IMG/VR virus record: IMGVR_UViG_3300034524_000131
Span: 1-49,215 of that record
Direction: 5' to 3' (one strand)
Length of the DNA stretch: 49,215 nucleotides
Source: a virus
Shown: piece after piece, positions 163 through 49,164 of the stretch
Layout of the letters: each line of letters opens with the position of its first letter
How positions within the stretch are numbered: position 1 is the stretch's first letter
The notes under the pieces: model-generated
What the model was told of the DNA's origin: nothing
The model's database searches: none
What the model saw: only the letters and a program-made list of their open reading frames with translations
Made by a program: the position numbers and the translations under genes

Positions 163-211
163 TGGTGGGCCATCAGGGACTCGAACCCGGGACACCCTGA
201 TTAAGAGTCAG
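163..211. other. attL (49-bp core, 3' part of tRNA-Lys)
   Basis: This 49-bp segment is identical to 49089-49137. It starts exactly at the CCA-encoding end of the tRNA-Lys gene and runs through the T arm and anticodon loop. Identity stops at 162 on one side and 212 on the other. The 5' half of the tRNA is absent here, so it is the displaced chromosomal 3' half and not a functional tRNA gene. Confidence 0.95.
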
Positions 212-1678: not shown

Positions 1679-2173
1679 TTAAAAAAATTTATACCGCAAA
1701 TTTTCATATTCACCTGATTCCCGGAGGGCCCAGCCGAGTTTCTTCCGGAACCGCACAAGCTCAATTGTAACGCCGAATACTTCAGTCAAAGCAAAGTCCG
1801 ATTCGTTTTGAGCCCAATGCGTTTCAAAAACACCAACAGGCATAAGGAAGTAGGCGGCGAAGGCTTGAGCTTGAGATTCGTTTTTTTCTATTATGATAGG
1901 GTCTAAAAGCGCAGTATTGCCAACATGATACATATGCCCTGCTTCGTGCACAAGATATTCTCTTCGGCAGCTGTTCTCTAAGGCATGTCCAATATAAATA
2001 GCTTTTGTTCTGCCATCTTCATGGTAAAGACCTTTTTTAAGGTATTTTGTTATTTCGATGTTTATTCCCTCACTATGTATGATTTGCTCTATAATGTCTG
2101 TCGGTATCGGAAAATCTTTAACATGGTATTTTTGTAAAATTTGATTGGCTTTTTTGGCCATAAGAAGATGCAT
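1679..2173 (-). CDS. ImmA/IrrE-family zinc metallopeptidase
   Basis: A 164-aa single-domain member of the ImmA/IrrE family, whose members cleave or inactivate XRE-type repressors (known for ImmA of ICEBs1). The zinc site HEAGH is at residues 76-80, with a downstream glutamate in KNESQAQAFAAYFLMP, the usual third ligand region. A GGAGG motif precedes ATG 2173. It lies between the integrase and a PIN-toxin gene on the same strand, so it may be cotranscribed with both. Inference: it could destroy the phage repressor at 5662-6024 on induction, which would make it an anti-repressor protease. No HTH domain is attached, unlike the 384-aa relative at 2689-3843. Confidence 0.85.
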   Translation of the reverse strand: MHLLMAKKANQILQKYHVKDFPIPTDIIEQIIHSEGINIEITKYLKKGLYHEDGRTKAIYIGHALENSCRREYLVHEAGHMYHVGNTALLDPIIIEKNESQAQAFAAYFLMPVGVFETHWAQNESDFALTEVFGVTIELVRFRKKLGWALRESGEYENLRYKFF

Positions 2174-2203
2174 AGGGAGCCTCCAGATTTGATGGAGTTT
2201 TTT

Positions 2204-2683
2204 TTAGAATTGCCAGCACTGGCGTTTCATAAATGTTTCCAGGTCAATGCACTCAATATTTAGGGTTTTGCAGATATTAGGTATCTTTGCAGCATTAGGC
2301 TTAATCTTCTCTAAAGTTACCACTGAACCATTAATTACTTTAGCTTTCGCGATAATGAAGGGGTCAGCACATGGTCTACCCGCTAAAAGTGTTTGCTTTG
2401 AGATCAAATATCGAAAATGTTGCGTCTCAAAAATCTTTCTTACCCACAGTTGCTCCTCCTCAGTTGGTTCTTCAAAAAAATTAAGATTGTTTCTAGTCCA
2501 TTGTTGTAAAGCGGCTTCTTCAGGATTAGGAGATGACATTATTTCATGGTATGCCTCACGTACAGATATTACAGAACGTGTAGTCACTAGCGAGTTAAAC
2601 TTGTCCCACAAAGAAGTGAAGACTGACGGATAATAAGAATTAAACCACTGTATTAGTACATTTGTGTCAAAAACATACTTCAT
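2204..2683 (-). CDS. PIN-domain protein, DUF4411-type, probable toxin
   Basis: A 159-aa PIN-fold protein. The N-terminus MKYVFDTNVLIQWF carries the first catalytic Asp of the PIN fold; the middle has conserved acidic residues (SVREAYHEI), and ADPFIIAKAKV carries the late Asp. PIN toxins are Mg-dependent RNases, usually acting on tRNA or rRNA. The size and sequence pattern fit the DUF4411 group, which is typically encoded beside an XRE-ImmA fusion protein. That partner is 5 bp upstream at 2689-3843, so the two probably form a toxin-antitoxin pair. Confidence 0.8.
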   Translation of the reverse strand: MKYVFDTNVLIQWFNSYYPSVFTSLWDKFNSLVTTRSVISVREAYHEIMSSPNPEEAALQQWTRNNLNFFEEPTEEEQLWVRKIFETQHFRYLISKQTLLAGRPCADPFIIAKAKVINGSVVTLEKIKPNAAKIPNICKTLNIECIDLETFMKRQCWQF

Positions 2684-2688
2684 TTTAC

Positions 2689-3843
2689 TTACCTACCTAA
2701 AGCAATTTCAAGCCGATGGATGCCATCAATTTTCTTTACTCCTAAATACTCGCCTAATTCAGAGATAGATATTTGATTACGGTAATACTTTTCAAAAGTA
2801 AGTGCAAGATATTTAGATCCTAAATAGGTTGCAATATTGTTATAGTAATTACCCCCCGATGATTGTTGACGCTCTTTTTTAAAGTCTCTATTCCATTCCT
2901 GAACCAATTGATTATATTTATTATTAGATATTAGGTTCTTATCTAACAATTTTCTTAAAATAACTTCGCGGCTAACTAGGTAATGTTGGGCTAATTCCGG
3001 TACATACGAAATAATATTATCTTTTCTGAATTCAACAAGGTGCTTCTCGAAATCATAATCTGGAACAAGAAATTCACCTGCAAATGCATTGCAGAAGATT
3101 TCAATTTCCTTTTCTTTTCCTTCAATATCCGTTAAATAGGTGTCATTAATATAGTCAATTCCACCTGTAAAGAACAACAGATGAGCAATTTCGTGGAATA
3201 AAGTGAAAATTTGCCTTGTTTCTGACATCGAGTTATTTACATAGATTAATGGAAACTTCTCATCGTACAAGCAAAATCCAGAAATCAGATCATTTCTGAA
3301 AGCATCTTTAAATATAAATATACCACATTCTTCAATTGTTTCTCTCCATTTAGCAAAAGCTTCTACTGGATTGTTCCATTGAGTTTGTTCTTCAATGGTA
3401 ATTCCCAGATACGAACGGATCTTTTTAGCTACGTTAGGTAACGGAGAATCTAATTCTAATCTCATGTCCTTAATGATGTTTTTTGGAGCTGGATTTCTTC
3501 CATCGCACAATTCTATTAAATTTTCGCGCATAACTTGAGCTTTACGAATTAACTTAACAACTGCCGGTGAAAAAGTCTCAAGTATAAAGTTTGGTAATGT
3601 TCTAAATTGTTCTTTTGGTTTTTCTTCAAGCGGAGGTTCTGGAAAGTAAAAAACAGCAACAGGTCGCCTATAGATATTAGCAAGCTTTTCCAATTGCTTA
3701 TAAGTAGGGTGCGCCTTTCCAGTTTCCCAATCTTTTATTTCTTGGGGAGACTTTTTAAGCTTTTTGGCAACATCCTCTATAGAATAATTAATGGATTCTC
3801 TGGCCCACCTGAGCATAAAGGGCACAGGCAGAGCTTTACCCAT
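2689..3843 (-). CDS. XRE HTH plus ImmA/IrrE metallopeptidase fusion, probable antitoxin
   Basis: 384 aa. Residues about 5-65 form an XRE helix-turn-helix (INYSIEDVAKKLKKSPQEIKDWETGKAHPTY is not exact but has the typical pattern). Residues about 200-290 form the ImmA/IrrE domain with HEIAH (217-221) and the second motif FCNAFAGEFLVP. Proteins of this architecture are the usual partners of DUF4411 PIN toxins and are thought to bind both the operon promoter and the toxin. The RBS is TAGGAGGG ahead of ATG 3843. An extended -10 sequence TGTTATAAT lies about 30 bp upstream. Confidence 0.85.
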   Translation of the reverse strand: MGKALPVPFMLRWARESINYSIEDVAKKLKKSPQEIKDWETGKAHPTYKQLEKLANIYRRPVAVFYFPEPPLEEKPKEQFRTLPNFILETFSPAVVKLIRKAQVMRENLIELCDGRNPAPKNIIKDMRLELDSPLPNVAKKIRSYLGITIEEQTQWNNPVEAFAKWRETIEECGIFIFKDAFRNDLISGFCLYDEKFPLIYVNNSMSETRQIFTLFHEIAHLLFFTGGIDYINDTYLTDIEGKEKEIEIFCNAFAGEFLVPDYDFEKHLVEFRKDNIISYVPELAQHYLVSREVILRKLLDKNLISNNKYNQLVQEWNRDFKKERQQSSGGNYYNNIATYLGSKYLALTFEKYYRNQISISELGEYLGVKKIDGIHRLEIALGR

Positions 3844-4261: not shown

Positions 4262-4345
4262 AATAAGGCATTCCTTTCTTAATAGGGTAAAATATTTTTA
4301 CTTTCTAACTAATATTTGAGATAATATTGATAGAGGTGATTTCTA

Positions 4346-5661: not shown

Positions 5662-6024
5662 TTACTTCTGTTTTCTTCTTGCCAGCAATCCCTGGAGGAA
5701 TATCTTCAGGGATTCTTTTTCTTCCTGACTCATCCCCTTCAAGTCATAAAACATAATCGTCACATCCGGTCCAAGCTCCCGCATGATGGCCATGATCTCG
5801 TCGTCGATGGTGGGGGGGTCGATGTCGGATTCTTCCCCTAAAAGGTAGCTTGTTGTTGTTCCTAATACCCTGGCAAGAATTTCAAGAGTGGCTAATGATG
5901 GATTACTTCTTCCCGATTCGATATCAGCAATAAATGAATGGGAAATATGCGCTAAATTTCCTAATTCTCTAAGAGATAATTTTTTTTTCAATCTTAATTG
6001 TTTTAATCTTTCTCCTAAGTTCAT
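5662..6024 (-). CDS. XRE-family repressor, probable lysogeny repressor
   Basis: 120 aa. Residues 3-58 form a clear XRE helix-turn-helix (GERLKQLRLKKKLSLRELG, then SHSFIADIESGRSNPSLATLE). The C-terminal part (residues 70-120) is an acidic then basic oligomerisation-like tail. It is divergent from the XRE gene at 6249-6482, with 224 bp of repeat-bearing intergenic DNA between them: the classic CI/Cro arrangement. It lacks a LexA-type self-cleavage domain, so induction would need another route such as ImmA-type proteolysis (candidate at 1679-2173). Confidence 0.85.
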   Translation of the reverse strand: MNLGERLKQLRLKKKLSLRELGNLAHISHSFIADIESGRSNPSLATLEILARVLGTTTSYLLGEESDIDPPTIDDEIMAIMRELGPDVTIMFYDLKGMSQEEKESLKIFLQGLLARRKQK

Positions 6025-6248
6025 TTTTAACCTCCGTTCGCTTATACCATACAGTTATATTATATAATTTTATAAGGTAGTTGTATATCTGATTTATGTA
6101 TGTAAATAACGAACAAAAAATTAAGAATGAACGAGAAAAAGCTAGGATGCAATAAATAAAGAAATATAATCGGTCGTAATAAGCGAACAAAAAGTTTTAC
6201 AAGTGGTCGTATATAACATACAATAATAATTGAAAGGAGGCATAAAAC
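6025..6248. promoter_or_regulatory. Divergent CI/Cro-type control region with repeated half-sites
   Basis: AT-rich intergenic DNA between two divergent XRE genes. GTTCGCTTA (6036-6044) recurs in inverse orientation as TAAGCGAAC (6180-6188), and GGTCGTA occurs at 6172-6178 and 6205-6211, the last just before the 6249 RBS. Related GAAC half-sites lie around 6110 and 6128. These are the likely operators of the two regulators. Promoter hexamers are not clear enough to place. Confidence 0.6.
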
Positions 6249-6482
6249 ATGATCGGGAACACATTAAAGAGATTAAGAAAACAACGAGGATTTTCCTTAA
6301 GAAAACTCGCAGAACTTTCTGGTTTGTCACACAGCTTTATTAGTGACATTGAAAATTATCGGTGTAATCCTTCAATAGAAAGCTTACAGAAAATAGCATC
6401 TGCGTTGAATGTAAAACCGCATATTTTTTTATCTGATGTGGTCGTAGAAAACGACCACAAAAACAAAAACCAAACAGCATGA
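6249..6482 (+). CDS. XRE-family regulator, Cro-like
   Basis: 77 aa, one XRE helix-turn-helix domain (LKRLRKQRGFSLRKLAELSGLSHSFISDIEN is the core pattern). AAAGGAGG precedes ATG 6249. It is the first rightward gene opposite the repressor. The HTH is similar in sequence to the repressor (shared SHSFI-DIE), consistent with overlapping operator recognition. Its last residues end in NQTA-stop, a tail shared with two other small genes downstream (see findings). A palindrome GTGGTCGT / ACGACCAC lies within its 3' coding end. Confidence 0.8.
   Translation: MIGNTLKRLRKQRGFSLRKLAELSGLSHSFISDIENYRCNPSIESLQKIASALNVKPHIFLSDVVVENDHKNKNQTA
6438..6458. promoter_or_regulatory. Palindrome inside the Cro-like gene, candidate operator
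   Basis: GTGGTCGT (6438-6445) and ACGACCAC (6451-6458) are perfect 8-bp inverted arms around AGAAA. The half-site GTGGTCGT also occurs at 6203-6210 before the start of the same gene, which supports a shared DNA-binding protein. Confidence 0.5.
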
Positions 6483-6496
6483 AGGGAGGGAGAGGG

Positions 6497-6652
6497 ATGG
6501 AAAGGACACTGGAACAGCGGATAGAGGAATTAGAGAAGAGAGTGGCTGAACTGGAGAAGGTAATCAATACGGAACAAATTTTAAATACGAGTCATAAACA
6601 TTTTAAATCATATAATGGGCCGGACAGTAAAGTTTATGTTGAACCCATTTAA
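6497..6652 (+). CDS. 51-aa leucine-zipper-like peptide
   Basis: GGGAGGGAGAGGG precedes ATG 6497; the frame stops at TAA 6650-6652. Residues 3-28 have regular heptads (LEQRIEELEKRVAELEKVI), typical of a short dimeric coiled coil. It follows the Cro-like gene by 14 bp and overlaps the 3' end of the opposing hydrolase gene by 50 bp. The strong RBS and heptad pattern support it as a real gene. It may be a small antirepressor or partner of an HTH protein, but that is a guess. Confidence 0.55.
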   Translation: MERTLEQRIEELEKRVAELEKVINTEQILNTSHKHFKSYNGPDSKVYVEPI

Positions 6653-7292
6653 TTTCTTTAGGAGTAATCAAAAGAATATCTATAGGACCACCACAACTTA
6701 CTGGCTTATATAAAAATTTATCAAGTTTAATAGTTGTTTCTAAACAAAATTTAACGAATTCGATAGCATCTACTATTGACATTATATCGTACTGAATATC
6801 GTTACGGTTTGAAATTAGTCTACTCATTGTATCTGGTTGACCTCCCCATGCCATACCGTAAATAACGGAGTTATCGTTATGATTTACAATATCTAATTTT
6901 TTTCTAGAGGGGTCAATAATGTATACAAATGGCTCGTTATTGCTATATCCTGCTAAATGGAAAGCCAGCGAATATTTACTAACTTCTTTGTTTATAAAGT
7001 CATAAAGTTTCTGGGCAATAATGTTTATATCATCACCTTTATGCAAATATTCATTCTTAAATTTTTCTAATGTGAATGGAAGCAATTTGCCATTTGGTAA
7101 AGCTATGCCAAATGAAGAAATACCAATGTTAAAGCCATCAAATAAAAATATTTTTTGTGAGTTGTAAGAAGAAACGAAGATTTCATGAATAGTATTTCCT
7201 AAATTATCTTTACTTGGTTTTGTAGTAATACGTGAACTGTCAGCAGCCATAACAATACCTTCCGACACGTAAATAGTAGCTATTATGGTCAA
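6603..7292 (-). CDS. Proteasome-like Ntn-hydrolase, N-terminal Thr
   Basis: 229 aa. After the start the sequence reads TIIATIYVSEGIVMAADSS, which aligns with the proteasome beta/HslV N-terminus (TTIVGVK..GGVVLAADSR): Thr1 and Asp17 are in register, and a KI pair further on may hold the catalytic Lys33 equivalent. The C-terminal CGGPIDILLITPKEIKWV also fits the family. The frame is open from a TTG at 7325, but AAGGAAGGGG lies 6 nt before a second TTG (7292) that is followed directly by ACC (Thr), so Met removal would expose the nucleophile. The gene lies 34 bp after an XRE gene on the same strand. Substrate unknown; the class cleaves peptide or amide bonds. Confidence 0.7.
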   Translation of the reverse strand: MTIIATIYVSEGIVMAADSSRITTKPSKDNLGNTIHEIFVSSYNSQKIFLFDGFNIGISSFGIALPNGKLLPFTLEKFKNEYLHKGDDINIIAQKLYDFINKEVSKYSLAFHLAGYSNNEPFVYIIDPSRKKLDIVNHNDNSVIYGMAWGGQPDTMSRLISNRNDIQYDIMSIVDAIEFVKFCLETTIKLDKFLYKPVSCGGPIDILLITPKEIKWVQHKLYCPAHYMI

Positions 7293-7326
7293 GACAAACC
7301 CCTTCCTTCGTAACCACTGATTCAAT

Positions 7327-7635
7327 TCATTTTAAAACTTTCAAGAATTCATTCAATTGTCTAAGCTGTTCTGAAGTGAGAGATTTGGCCGTATTAAGTA
7401 GCTGGCGAAGTTCAGGTGATAAAGTTTTATCGTTTGTGTTATCTAAATCAAAAAATTCTTTGAGAGTTATACCTAAGCCTTCACATATAAACATTATGGT
7501 TTCAATACTTGGGCTTTTATTGCCGGCTTCAATATAACTAAGACTAGATTGAGCAATTTTAGCCCTTTTGGCTAACTCGTTTTGACTCAACCCAAAATTT
7601 TCACGTAAAGTTTTGATGCGCTTTCCAACATCCAA
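7327..7635 (-). CDS. XRE-family regulator paired with the Ntn-hydrolase
   Basis: About 102 aa. An XRE helix-turn-helix covers residues 3-58 (GKRIKTLRENFGLSQNELA and SSLSYIEAGNKSPSIET), followed by a short tail DNTNDKTLSPELRQLLNTAKSL that resembles the dimerisation tail of small SinR-type regulators. The start is uncertain: TTG 7635 has GGTGGTG at good spacing, while the frame is open to a GTG at 7662. It ends 34 bp before the hydrolase start, so the two probably form an operon. It faces the 66-aa XRE gene at 7750 across a repeat-rich promoter. Confidence 0.75.
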   Translation of the reverse strand: MDVGKRIKTLRENFGLSQNELAKRAKIAQSSLSYIEAGNKSPSIETIMFICEGLGITLKEFFDLDNTNDKTLSPELRQLLNTAKSLTSEQLRQLNEFLKVLK

Positions 7636-7659
7636 TGAATTCACCACCCAAAAGATTAA

Positions 7660-7728
7660 CACTATAGTGATTTTATCACAAAAACAATCAAAATAGTTAT
7701 TGACAGATAATCAAAATAGTGATATTAT
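7660..7728. promoter_or_regulatory. Strong sigma-A promoter with operator repeats between two divergent XRE genes
   Basis: The rightward promoter has TTGACA at 7700-7705, a 17-bp spacer and TATTAT at 7723-7728, near consensus. The 12-mer AATCAAAATAGT occurs twice in direct orientation (7686-7697 and 7709-7720), the second copy within the spacer. A palindrome CACTATAGTG (7660-7669) and GTGAT/ATCAC arms (7667-7679) lie on the leftward side. The layout predicts repression of both directions by one or both XRE proteins. Confidence 0.75.
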
Positions 7729-7749
7729 ATTATCGAAAGGGTGATAAGT

Positions 7750-7950
7750 ATGAACAGTATTAAAAAATTAAGGGAAGCAAAAAAAATGTCACAAGCTGAA
7801 CTTGCAAAAAAAGCAAATATTTCACAAGCAGCTGTCCATTATATTGAATCCGGACAGAAATCACCAACTTTAAAGGTATTAACGAAAATAGCAAAAGCTC
7901 TTGAGGTTGAATTAGAAGATTTGATTAGCAGCCATAACCAAACAGCCTGA
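7750..7950 (+). CDS. Small XRE-family regulator
   Basis: 66 aa, a single HTH domain (IKKLREAKKMSQAELAKKANISQ, then YIESGQKSPTLKVLTKIAKALEV). ATG 7750 has GAAAGGGTGAT at good spacing; a GTG at 7741 would be too close to that RBS. Expressed from the strong promoter at 7700-7728. It ends in HNQTA-stop, sharing its 3' end and following RBS with two other genes in this operon. Its target is probably the adjacent repeat-bearing promoter. Confidence 0.8.
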   Translation: MNSIKKLREAKKMSQAELAKKANISQAAVHYIESGQKSPTLKVLTKIAKALEVELEDLISSHNQTA

Positions 7951-7961
7951 GGGGGTGAGGG

Positions 7962-8225
7962 ATGATGAAAACATTTGCAGGGAAAAGATTTTTCCGTGTG
8001 TTTGTGCCAAGTGAGGCAAGAAAAGACGGGGTGCAGTTGAACGAGATGCATGAGATAATCGCCAATGATGAGGTTGACGCTATACTGCAGGCTTTCAACG
8101 CCAAAGACTATAGACCGGGTTATTATAAAGGCGTGATCGTAGTTGAGGTTTTTCTTGGTGGCGGACATAAAGTCACAGAATGGTCACACAGGCACTATGC
8201 GGATGCATATGAGCAAACAGCATAA
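7962..8225 (+). CDS. Unknown small phage protein
   Basis: 87 aa, soluble, beginning MMKTFAGKRFFRVFVPSEARKDG and ending EQTA-stop. Alternating hydrophobic strands (YYKGVIVVEVFLGGG) suggest a small alpha/beta fold, but I do not recognise the family. GGGGGTGAGG precedes the tandem ATG ATG. It sits 11 bp after the 66-aa XRE gene and 12 bp before an HTH gene in the rightward early operon. Confidence 0.65.
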   Translation: MMKTFAGKRFFRVFVPSEARKDGVQLNEMHEIIANDEVDAILQAFNAKDYRPGYYKGVIVVEVFLGGGHKVTEWSHRHYADAYEQTA

Positions 8226-8237
8226 AGGGGGTGAGGG

Positions 8238-8480
8238 ATGATGAACCAACCAATATACGAACCAGAGCAGCTACCGTATGTGCTCAAAACCCAAGACGTA
8301 ATGAATCTCTGCCGGTGCTCCCGGCCCTGGGCGATGAAAATCATTCGCAAGGCAGAAAAGAGAGGTGTCGGGGTGCACTGGGTGGGGAAGCAGCCTAGGG
8401 TGAATAGGGATTCGTTTTTGGAATACTTGAGAACATGCAAAAGACAACCTAAATTAAAAACGACGGAGGTGAGCTCATGA
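8238..8480 (+). CDS. Excisionase-like winged HTH protein
   Basis: 80 aa. The segment YVLKTQDVMNLCRCSRPWAMKIIRKAEKRG, then a basic wing VHWVGKQPRVNRDSFLEYL, matches the MerR/HTH_17 excisionase-like pattern. Such proteins bind DNA near att sites and favour excision, or act as small regulators. It is far from the integrase but within the early operon, where some temperate phages carry xis. Function is inferred from the fold only. The next gene starts within its stop region (8477). Confidence 0.6.
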   Translation: MMNQPIYEPEQLPYVLKTQDVMNLCRCSRPWAMKIIRKAEKRGVGVHWVGKQPRVNRDSFLEYLRTCKRQPKLKTTEVSS

Positions 8481-36008: not shown

Positions 36009-36605
36009 ATGAGGAAAATTTTATCAATGATTATTATTCTGTTGATGCTTGTAACGTTGGTTGCTGGTTGCAGTGGTGAACCATCTGAAAGCGTTCAAGG
36101 GGATCAGAAGGAAGCAAAAAACACTGAAGCTGAAAGTATCAAGTATATAAAAGCAGGTATGTATAAAGTGGGTAAAGATATCCCTGCTGGAGAATATCTA
36201 ATAATTGCAGAAGGTATGGGTTATTATCAAGTAACAAAGGATAGTAGCGGAAGTTTAGATAGTATAATTACTAATGATAATTTTTCTAGCACTAGATATG
36301 TAACTGTTTCTGACGGCCAGTATATAGAAATAGTAGCCTCCAAAATGATACTAGCATCCGAAGCAAAACCGCAAAAGCCACAAAATGATGAATATGCAGA
36401 TGGAATGTATAAAGTTGGCAAAGATATTCCCGCAGGAGAATACAAGATTGTTTCTACAGGTGGAATGGCGTATTTTGAAGTTGCAAAGGACAGCAGTGGT
36501 AGCCTTGATTCAATTGTCACAAATGATAATTTTGAAGGTGAAAAATATATAACTGTAAAAGATGGACAGTATCTGAAATTAGTCGACTGCAAAATAGTTA
36601 AATAG
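36009..36605 (+). CDS. Lipoprotein with two tandem repeats, lysogenic cargo
   Basis: 198 aa. Signal peptide MRKILSMIIILLMLVTLVAGCS with lipobox LVAGC, so it should be anchored on the cell surface. Two copies of a roughly 60-aa beta repeat follow (residues about 50-110 and 128-190), each with MYKVGKDIPAGEY and KDSSGSLDSI(I/V)TNDNF. It interrupts the sheath and tube genes, is AT-rich and has its own terminator. A surface lipoprotein made by a prophage may block superinfection, but this is inferred. Confidence 0.85.
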   Translation: MRKILSMIIILLMLVTLVAGCSGEPSESVQGDQKEAKNTEAESIKYIKAGMYKVGKDIPAGEYLIIAEGMGYYQVTKDSSGSLDSIITNDNFSSTRYVTVSDGQYIEIVASKMILASEAKPQKPQNDEYADGMYKVGKDIPAGEYKIVSTGGMAYFEVAKDSSGSLDSIVTNDNFEGEKYITVKDGQYLKLVDCKIVK

Positions 36606-46611: not shown

Positions 46612-47052
46612 ATGCTTTATGGTCTTAAGATACAGGTAGATTTTGAAACTGGAAAGAGGGCAGGTAACATTGACCCGCGGGATAGGGGATTGGCATGTCA
46701 TCCGACATGGCAGAACATTGATGTTGGCTACGAAGTTAGACTGATTGTAGATGGTAGAGATGTCGCAGTGTATGAAAATGTCCCTGGAATAGAGATTCTG
46801 TACGGGGAAAATGTGATTAATGCTGAAGTTCAAGCAATGCAAAAAGACAGATATACTGTAAAAAACGAAGCTCTATTAGTAGAAAGTATCAAACAAAAAG
46901 GAATAGATATAAGCGACATACCTCCTGACTTGTCACCGGAAGAGGAAGCAAGAGAGTTATATCTACGAGGAGCGCTTGGTATTGTCAGGTACTCTCCAAA
47001 TCCGCCTACAGCGGCAGAGCTGTATAATAAGTTTTCGACGGAGAGTAGATAA
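46612..47052 (+). CDS. Unknown tail-lysis junction protein
   Basis: 146 aa from ATG 46612 after ATAGGAGG. YGLKIQVDFETGKRAGNIDPRDRGLACHPTWQNID begins the protein and a helical C-terminus LSPEEEARELYLRGALGIV ends it. No known family. Probably a fiber-associated or chaperone-type protein by position. Confidence 0.6.
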   Translation: MLYGLKIQVDFETGKRAGNIDPRDRGLACHPTWQNIDVGYEVRLIVDGRDVAVYENVPGIEILYGENVINAEVQAMQKDRYTVKNEALLVESIKQKGIDISDIPPDLSPEEEARELYLRGALGIVRYSPNPPTAAELYNKFSTESR

Positions 47053-47053
47053 A

Positions 47054-48553
47054 ATGCAATACATCAAACAAAACCTCAAAGAATACGACCTCTCCGGCAT
47101 CCTCCGCTGGCATGAGGCAGGGTATACGGGGGAGGGAATAAAAATTGCTGAAATTGAATCCGCAAAGCCAGACCTGCCGTTTTTTGACGGCAAATTGCAC
47201 GACCCGTTCGGAATTGGCAAGGATTCCAAACTTAACAGCCATGGTCAGAAGGTGCTTGACGTTATTCATCAGGTCGCACCTGATGCAGATTTGTATTGTC
47301 TGCCTAGCGGATTTTCCAATTTGAACGGCAAAGTTGGGGGGAGTTTTTTAGAAAAAACTCTACCCTTTGTTATTCAGGAGGGTATTCATATAGTCAATGC
47401 GAGCCTTGGCGGTTTTGATGACGAGGTAGTTAGACAGGAAATGCAAAAGGCTATAGAGAAGGGAGTAGTATTTACTACAAGTGCTGGCAACAAAGGTAAA
47501 AAAGGATTAGGAAAATTTGCAAAGAGCAACATGTGGATTAGTATAGGCGCAGTAGGTTTGAATGATAGGCGTAAAGAAATATTTTTGAAAAATTATTCCA
47601 GCAGAGGTCCTGAATTGGATGTTGTTTGTTTCTCCGGATTATATATTCATGATGCCAAGAATCCAAGCAGGGTATTCCCTGAAGAAGGAACGAGTTTTTC
47701 GGCCCCTATGTTAGCGGGGATGCTTGCGTTAGTTCAGCAGTTTTTCTTAGAGAAAGCAGGCCGAACACTGTATCAGGACGAAGTAGAAAAGTTTATACGG
47801 GATTATGTGATAGATTTAGGCGCAGAAGGCTTTGACGAGGAATACGGTCATGGCCTTTTTGTTTTGCCTGAACCTGATGAAATTGAAATCGAAAGATATT
47901 TGTTGAGAAAAGGCGGTGATTGCGTGGCTGATTACAAGAAATACCTTAATTTGGACCTTAGGTCCGAATCAAATATTTCGGCCCGGGCGCTGGACAAATA
48001 CCTTGAAGGCACTCCGATGGGAGGTTTGGGCGCCTATTTTATTGCGGCAGAGAAGAGATACTCCGTCAACGCCCAGTATCTCTGTGCCCATGCAGTGCAT
48101 GAGAGCGATTTTGGCAGAAGTCGAATAGCACGGGATAAGAAAAACCTATTCGGATTCGGAGCATACGACAGAAATCCTTATGAGAATGCTAAATCTTTTA
48201 GTTCATTTGAAGAGTGCATATACTATGTAGCTGAATACATTGCTGAAAACTACCTTGCGCCAACGGGAAAATATTACAACGGTCCAACATTGAAGGGTAT
48301 GAACGTGAAGTATGCAACCGATCCATATTGGGCTGAGAAAATCGCCAGGCACATGGCTAAAATAGAGGAGGTGGCAAAGAATATGAAAGACTATAAAGGC
48401 CACTGGGCCGAAGCGGCAATCGAGAAAGTGAAAGCTGCAGGGCTTATGTCGGGCTATCCTGACGGCAGTTTCAAGCCGGACCAGCCCGTCACCAGGGCGG
48501 AACTGGCGTCGGTATTGATGCGAATATTAGAGAAGGTAGGTGTGGAAAAGTGA
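47054..48553 (+). CDS. Three-domain lysin: subtilase, glucosaminidase, SLH
   Basis: 499 aa from ATG 47054. Residues 25-270 are S8 subtilase-like: His63 in NSHGQKV, Asn146 in TSAGNKG, Ser214 in GTSFSAP; the usual catalytic Asp position (DTG) reads E35-S-A. Residues 305-440 are a glucosaminidase domain (catalytic Glu350 in AVHESDFGRS, NLFGFGAYD). Residues 445-490 are one SLH repeat (GHWAEAAIEKVKAAGLMSGYPDG). It would cut peptidoglycan and perhaps S-layer or cell-wall protein at lysis. An internal RBS and GTG at 47924 lie exactly at the domain junction. Confidence 0.85.
   Translation: MQYIKQNLKEYDLSGILRWHEAGYTGEGIKIAEIESAKPDLPFFDGKLHDPFGIGKDSKLNSHGQKVLDVIHQVAPDADLYCLPSGFSNLNGKVGGSFLEKTLPFVIQEGIHIVNASLGGFDDEVVRQEMQKAIEKGVVFTTSAGNKGKKGLGKFAKSNMWISIGAVGLNDRRKEIFLKNYSSRGPELDVVCFSGLYIHDAKNPSRVFPEEGTSFSAPMLAGMLALVQQFFLEKAGRTLYQDEVEKFIRDYVIDLGAEGFDEEYGHGLFVLPEPDEIEIERYLLRKGGDCVADYKKYLNLDLRSESNISARALDKYLEGTPMGGLGAYFIAAEKRYSVNAQYLCAHAVHESDFGRSRIARDKKNLFGFGAYDRNPYENAKSFSSFEECIYYVAEYIAENYLAPTGKYYNGPTLKGMNVKYATDPYWAEKIARHMAKIEEVAKNMKDYKGHWAEAAIEKVKAAGLMSGYPDGSFKPDQPVTRAELASVLMRILEKVGVEK
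47924..48553 (+). CDS. Internal start: stand-alone glucosaminidase-SLH lysin
   Basis: GTG 47924 is in frame with the fusion and preceded by AAAGGCGGTGAT at good spacing. The product would be 209 aa, beginning at the segment ADYKKYLNLDLRSESNIS, which is the natural start of the muramidase part. It could be a relic of the gene fusion or an active second product. Confidence 0.5.
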   Translation: MADYKKYLNLDLRSESNISARALDKYLEGTPMGGLGAYFIAAEKRYSVNAQYLCAHAVHESDFGRSRIARDKKNLFGFGAYDRNPYENAKSFSSFEECIYYVAEYIAENYLAPTGKYYNGPTLKGMNVKYATDPYWAEKIARHMAKIEEVAKNMKDYKGHWAEAAIEKVKAAGLMSGYPDGSFKPDQPVTRAELASVLMRILEKVGVEK

Positions 48554-49088: not shown

Positions 49089-49137
49089 TGGTGGGCCATC
49101 AGGGACTCGAACCCGGGACACCCTGATTAAGAGTCAG
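49089..49137. other. attR (49-bp core)
   Basis: Identical to 163-211. Here the core is joined to the 5' half of tRNA-Lys, so the gene is whole again. Mismatches begin at 49088 and 49138. Confidence 0.95.
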
Positions 49138-49164
49138 GTGCTCTACCAACTGAGCTAATGGCCC
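49089..49164 (-). tRNA. tRNA-Lys(CUU)
   Basis: 76 nt including encoded CCA. Acceptor stem GGGCCAT/ATGGCCC, D arm TAGCTCAGTTGGTAGAGCA, anticodon stem CCTGA/TCAGG with loop CTCTTAA (anticodon CTT), T arm GTCCCGGGTTCGAGTCCCTG. The 3' 49 bases come from the phage. Confidence 0.95.

Follow-up and report, generated by a model that had tools for sequence, protein, structure and literature searches.

HslV (ClpQ/CodW) is a bacterial relative with a Thr (or Ser) nucleophile, and both residues are hydroxyl nucleophiles known in the proteasome-like class. Beyond the classical proteasome and HslV, proteasome-like proteins are numerous, but hardly any has a known role. In 2021, Fuchs, Alva and Lupas (PMC8665760) described 22 uncharacterised subfamilies of such homologs, some of them in phages, and recognised them by the catalytic set Thr/Ser1-Asp17-Lys33-Gly47. 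In Anbu, removal of Met exposes Thr1, and there is no propeptide (PMC5666114); in the proteasome-like class, it is the norm and no oddity for the start codon to abut the catalytic residue (PMC8665760, PMC5666114). The hydrolase gene analysed here belongs to a kind already described in 2021 (Fuchs, Alva and Lupas; PMC8665760), of which it is a new member.

The window, i.e., the whole stretch of 49,215 nucleotides that was analysed, is a complete integrated tailed prophage of ~49 kb, as judged from its gene content and attachment repeat. An integrase gene stands at the left end, and tail sheath, portal, terminase, and baseplate genes follow rightward (functions read from the translations). The two copies of a 49-nt repeat are perfect and direct, and on this basis we read them as the attachment sites of the complete prophage (Table 1).

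Table 1. Positions in the window of the hydrolase gene, its regulatory surroundings, and the prophage ends.
Feature	Position	Strand	Basis or remark
Attachment site, left copy, 49-nt direct repeat	163..211		
XRE regulator of the second divergent repressor pair	5662..6024	minus	HTH_3 1.4e-15
XRE regulator, Cro-like, second divergent pair	6249..6482	plus	HTH_3 9.2e-16
36-nt junction sequence	6468..6503	plus	repeats at 7936-7971 (72%) and 8211-8246 (67%)
Proteasome-like Ntn-hydrolase gene, 229 codons from TTG	6603..7292	minus	TTG at 7292, stop at 6603
XRE (HTH_3) CI-like repressor, upstream of and co-directional with the hydrolase gene	7327..7641	minus	HTH_3 5.2e-15
Strong sigma-70-like promoter for the Cro-like gene, TTGACA-17-TATTAT, 11/12	7700..7728	plus	consensus scan
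Divergent XRE gene, Cro-like, ATG at 7750	7741..7950	plus	HTH_3 8.8e-19
Attachment site, right copy, 49-nt direct repeat, inside tRNA-Lys	49089..49137		
tRNA-Lys	49089-49164	minus	

Homologs of the hydrolase were collected from bacterial genomes and viral contigs (twenty at first, with more added through an alignment query and whole-genome searches), and the aligned family of 27 rows, window included, was used for AlphaFold2 modelling. The resulting model is confident (pLDDT 91.5, pTM 0.88), and its Foldseek matches include proteasome beta subunits (down to 4.7e-10) and Anbu (5.3e-9). VIA-align gave Z scores of 21.6 to human 20S proteasome beta (3.0 A over 184 residues) and 21.1 to Anbu, and both alignments start with the first residue of the model paired to mature-chain residue 1 of the other protein. 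The original prediction had called a proteasome/HslV/Anbu-type Ntn fold from the sequence, and the comparison with proteasome beta and Anbu bears this out. A profile search against solved structures also matched proteasome beta subunits by sequence alone (best E 2.1e-5), and a library of viral protein structures contains a close match annotated as a proteasome beta subunit of an uncultured siphovirus (TM 0.79-0.82). In Pfam, the window protein alone is a weak match to PF00227 (16 bits vs. a curated cut-off of 22.4); 14 of the 27 family members match the Proteasome family at E <= 0.1, and one distant member, L044 (same gene as L036/L048), exceeds the curated cut-off. In PHROGs, 23 of the 27 relatives match phrog_5990 (unknown function), and there is no good match for the window protein. 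Judged from the model and the start site, the hydrolase is a propeptide-less member of the proteasome-like Ntn-hydrolases, a fold call that we consider well supported.

The hydrolase frame is complete and full-length, with AAGGAAGGGG upstream of the TTG at 7292 and a Thr codon directly after it, as originally described. In all 36 sequences with a readable N-terminus (34 family members, window included, and two more distant relatives, L030 and L050), the start codon is followed directly by Ser (25) or Thr (11), 16 residues before Asp17, which agrees with the predicted register between the N-terminal nucleophile and Asp17. Further, many homologs have an in-frame stop 0-9 codons upstream of the start, which makes a real propeptide impossible in those. 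The agreement of the 36 starts, together with these upstream stops, shows that the TTG at 7292 is the right start, as had been proposed; a longer version from an in-frame TTG at 7325 (+11 residues) was rejected on the same agreement among homologs. The TTG itself is unique to the window among the 36 sequences, the rest having ATG (ATG-ACT in the distant L030) except for the distant L050 (GTG-ACC). The mature hydrolase of 228 residues would begin T1-I-I-A and carry D17, K46 (=K33), and G61 (=G47).

The original prediction further held that Met removal leaves an N-terminal Thr, and named a Thr that is not conserved among homologs as evidence to the contrary. The abutting start stood, but homologs have either Ser or Thr as the conserved nucleophile instead of Thr alone; taken literally, the Thr is therefore not conserved, but its substitute, Ser, is likewise a hydroxyl nucleophile of this class. 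Members with Ser and members with Thr are interspersed: the best tree requires at least five changes, although its well-supported branches force only one. Such an exchange at the nucleophile within one family amounts to a natural experiment on nucleophile choice.

Asp17, Lys46, Gly61, Gly150, Gly200-Gly201, Asp204, and Lys219 are invariant in 27/27 rows. In the profile search, Lys46 falls in the column of Lys33 of solved beta subunits. Gly61 probably corresponds to Gly47, since Lys and Gly are 13-15 residues apart across the family, against 14 in the proteasome. The segment from Asp17 to Lys33 is longer than the 16 residues of the proteasome (29 in the window protein, 19-40 in the family) and forms an extended S3-S4 hairpin in the model. 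Position 19 is Ser in the window copy and Arg in the other 26 aligned members, which calls for some caution over the activity of this copy; it might be impaired through Ser19.

Compared with the 20S proteasome beta subunit, the window protein shares the fold and the positions of Thr1, Asp17, Lys33, and Gly47, but differs in the missing propeptide, the extended S3-S4 hairpin, a short helix H3, and a non-acidic residue in the D166 column (Lys in the window protein, mostly Arg/Lys in the family). Neither an alpha subunit nor an AAA+ ATPase, the partners of the 20S proteasome, was recognised among the neighbouring genes. The model aligns with Anbu from its first residue but lacks the long C-terminal helix of that protein, and none of the Anbu operon genes (transglutaminase, ATP-grasp, and Alpha-E) was recognised beside the hydrolase gene. 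As for HslV, a separate and much stronger HslV-type Proteasome-family gene is present in 4/4 tested genomes that carry the family, and hhalign found no significant match between the family and an HslV profile of only four sequences (probability 0.8%). From these sequence comparisons, the hydrolase family is probably a lineage separate from HslV.

The homologs of Fuchs et al. share several features with the window protein, namely a proteasome-like fold with Thr/Ser1-Asp17-Lys33-Gly47, the lack of a propeptide and of a recognised AAA+ partner, and a patchy distribution in prokaryotes and some phages (PMC8665760). Among them, PPH and AAH are likewise encoded by phage-borne proteasome-like genes, but PPH has ~140 residues and no helix 2 (PMC8665760), whereas H1 and H2 are both present in the 228-residue window protein. 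PMI-2 to PMI-6 have a variable loop between helices 3 and 4 (PMC8665760), as do the relatives found here, many of which have a long H3-H4 loop; it is short in the window protein. The closest subfamily is probably in group II of Fuchs et al., either the PMI variants or the Firmicute cluster FC1.

The hydrolase start lies 34 nt downstream of the co-directional XRE gene (7641-7327), consistent with the apparent operon of the original prediction, and from this short gap the two genes probably share an operon. The XRE pair facing each other over a strong promoter was confirmed in part: the divergent XRE gene is present (7741/7750-7950), but the promoter points right, to the Cro-like gene, and the consensus scan returned no convincing promoter for the XRE-hydrolase pair. 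Two 15-nt direct repeats (7686-7700 and 7709-7723) resemble operators. The hydrolase gene sits between two divergent pairs of XRE repressor and Cro-like genes (5662-6482 and 7327-7950) within 2.3 kb, an arrangement that amounts to a doubled immunity region. Its neighbours in the window are XRE regulators and a DUF6414 protein; a search for viral relatives of the DUF6414 protein found zero, and the XRE repressor had only two partial matches in viral contigs.

At 30.7%, the GC content of the hydrolase gene is the lowest among the segments measured (window, 43.2%). The 36-nt junction sequence spans gene ends and ribosome-binding sites, and its copies 1 and 2 bracket the hydrolase-XRE-Cro segment. 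The low GC content together with the recurring junction suggests that this block may have been imported by recombination there, the 36-nt repeats being possible recombination junctions. A related prophage record (L031) matches much of the replication module of the window and lacks both the hydrolase and the repressor of the window, which points to the hydrolase as part of an exchangeable block. The lysogeny end of L031 differs, with a serine integrase and one XRE gene; a similar junction, GAGGGGGTGAGGGATG, follows that XRE gene near 4300.

The family is rare: counting the seed genomes, 8 of 398 genomes carry it in the phylum to which G001 belongs, and 1 of 398 in the phylum of G008; tblastn with P0001 and other family members gave zero matches in deposited phages (50,697 records) and plasmids (72,556 records). 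No neighbour gene family is common to the loci beyond close sister genomes. Some phage copies (L020, L024, and L026-L029) stand between tail and lysis genes, others near terminase or capsid genes (L021-L023 and L048) or elsewhere. The cellular copies adjoin uvrC and a ROK kinase, gpsA, or an oligopeptide transporter, or stand in defence-like stretches. Three cellular relatives have defence-type neighbours: one (L018) has a DrmD-like helicase and a candidate phage-defence family nearby, one (L013) adjoins a NucC/PD-DExK-like gene, and one (L012) is near a type II methyltransferase.

A distant relative of ~400 aa in a viral contig (L030:5302-6498) starts with ATG-Thr and carries a long insertion in its middle. 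In L018, the gene immediately downstream of the family member (L018:2911-3729), itself followed by a DrmD-like SNF2 helicase, also encodes a proteasome-like motif at the N-terminus (MT, then D17); the proteasome-like call for this gene is tentative, with a weak profile match and a poor single-sequence model.

We consider it fairly probable that the gene encodes a propeptide-less proteasome-like Ntn-hydrolase, an acquired, mobile accessory gene (moron) that is probably co-transcribed with the XRE repressor and processes peptides in the host cytoplasm. Sequence and model ground this reading in the fold, the start site, the catalytic residues, an accessory and patchy distribution, and the position behind the repressor; Met removal, catalytic activity, and lysogenic expression are what we infer beyond them. 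Translation would begin at the TTG at 7292, and the host methionine aminopeptidase would clip the Met and expose Thr1, as reported for Anbu (PMC5666114). A propeptide would not be needed. Thr1 would then act as nucleophile with its own amino group, supported by Asp17 and Lys46 and with Gly61 in the oxyanion hole, and this proteasome-type centre may hydrolyse or otherwise process peptide bonds in the host cytoplasm. The short distance of 34 nt to the repressor gene points to expression in the lysogen, where the target of the enzyme would be the host or an incoming phage and virion production would not be its task. Against this, the location of several phage relatives in the tail/lysis region would suggest late rather than lysogenic expression. 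The substrate and the physiological role are a guess; one candidate role, with a small chance of being right, is that of a lysogenic conversion factor: made from the repressor operon, the enzyme would selectively degrade or modify proteins of the host or of invading phages. If true, this would give a proteasome homolog carried by a phage its first assigned function. Most relatives offer no concrete hypothesis such as the lysogenic expression to which the immunity-region position points here, and a small, propeptide-free member of this kind is easily expressed and tested.

The spacing that suggests an operon could also mean that repressor and hydrolase belong together as a dedicated unit: by cleaving or activating the repressor, the hydrolase would control induction or serve as a toxin-like effector. 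The repressor pair directly beside the hydrolase fits this, but when all loci were searched with an XRE profile, only the window had an XRE gene right next to the hydrolase; the profile was built from only five sequences and could miss divergent HTH genes. The nearest other XRE genes lie ~0.6 kb (L008) and ~1.5 kb (L045) from the hydrolase. A conserved XRE pairing was thereby ruled out, within the reach of that profile, and with the varying neighbours between loci and the lack of the hydrolase in L031, the self-contained unit of the original prediction is not supported. Repressor processing by the hydrolase, also suggested originally, loses ground to the two ImmA/IrrE-type peptidases that the prophage already encodes (1679-2173 and 2689-3843), as enzymes of this kind are known to cleave repressors and are the more obvious candidates. 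We therefore regard the dedicated unit as very unlikely. Anti-phage defence or superinfection exclusion, with the lysogen-expressed enzyme degrading incoming-phage proteins, draws on the position in the immunity region and on the three cellular relatives with defence-type neighbours. On the other hand, the hydrolase protein has no match in PADLOC-DB, other cellular relatives stand among housekeeping genes (e.g., uvrC, ROK kinase, and gpsA), and many phage copies lie in tail/lysis regions, leaving this role rather unlikely.

The extended S3-S4 hairpin by the active site might instead narrow specificity and make the protein a processing or ligase-type (connectase-like) enzyme rather than a degradative one. 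The long Asp17-to-Lys33 segment coincides with the insertion site of connectase (PMC8665760), and a conserved AAA+ partner is absent among the neighbours; in the model, however, the inserted residues extend a strand where connectase has a two-helix cap, and helices H1-H2, absent from connectase, are present. We thus hold this activity to be quite unlikely. Finally, the window-specific R19S at an otherwise invariant position, a TTG start where all other tight-family members have ATG, and a long branch in the tree could indicate a decaying gene whose inactive product makes it passenger DNA only. This is very improbable in our view, as the open frame is full-length and all catalytic residues and invariant motifs are kept at ~35% identity to relatives.

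Elsewhere in the prophage, an ImmA-type peptidase, a DUF4411 PIN-like protein, and an XRE-ImmA fusion are encoded in series (1679-3843) and look like a toxin-antitoxin-type module. A lipoprotein-like gene within the tail operon (36009-36605) is a possible moron, and a predicted protein near the right end (46976-48553) seemingly combines subtilisin-like, glucosaminidase-like, and SLH domains, as read by eye from its translation.
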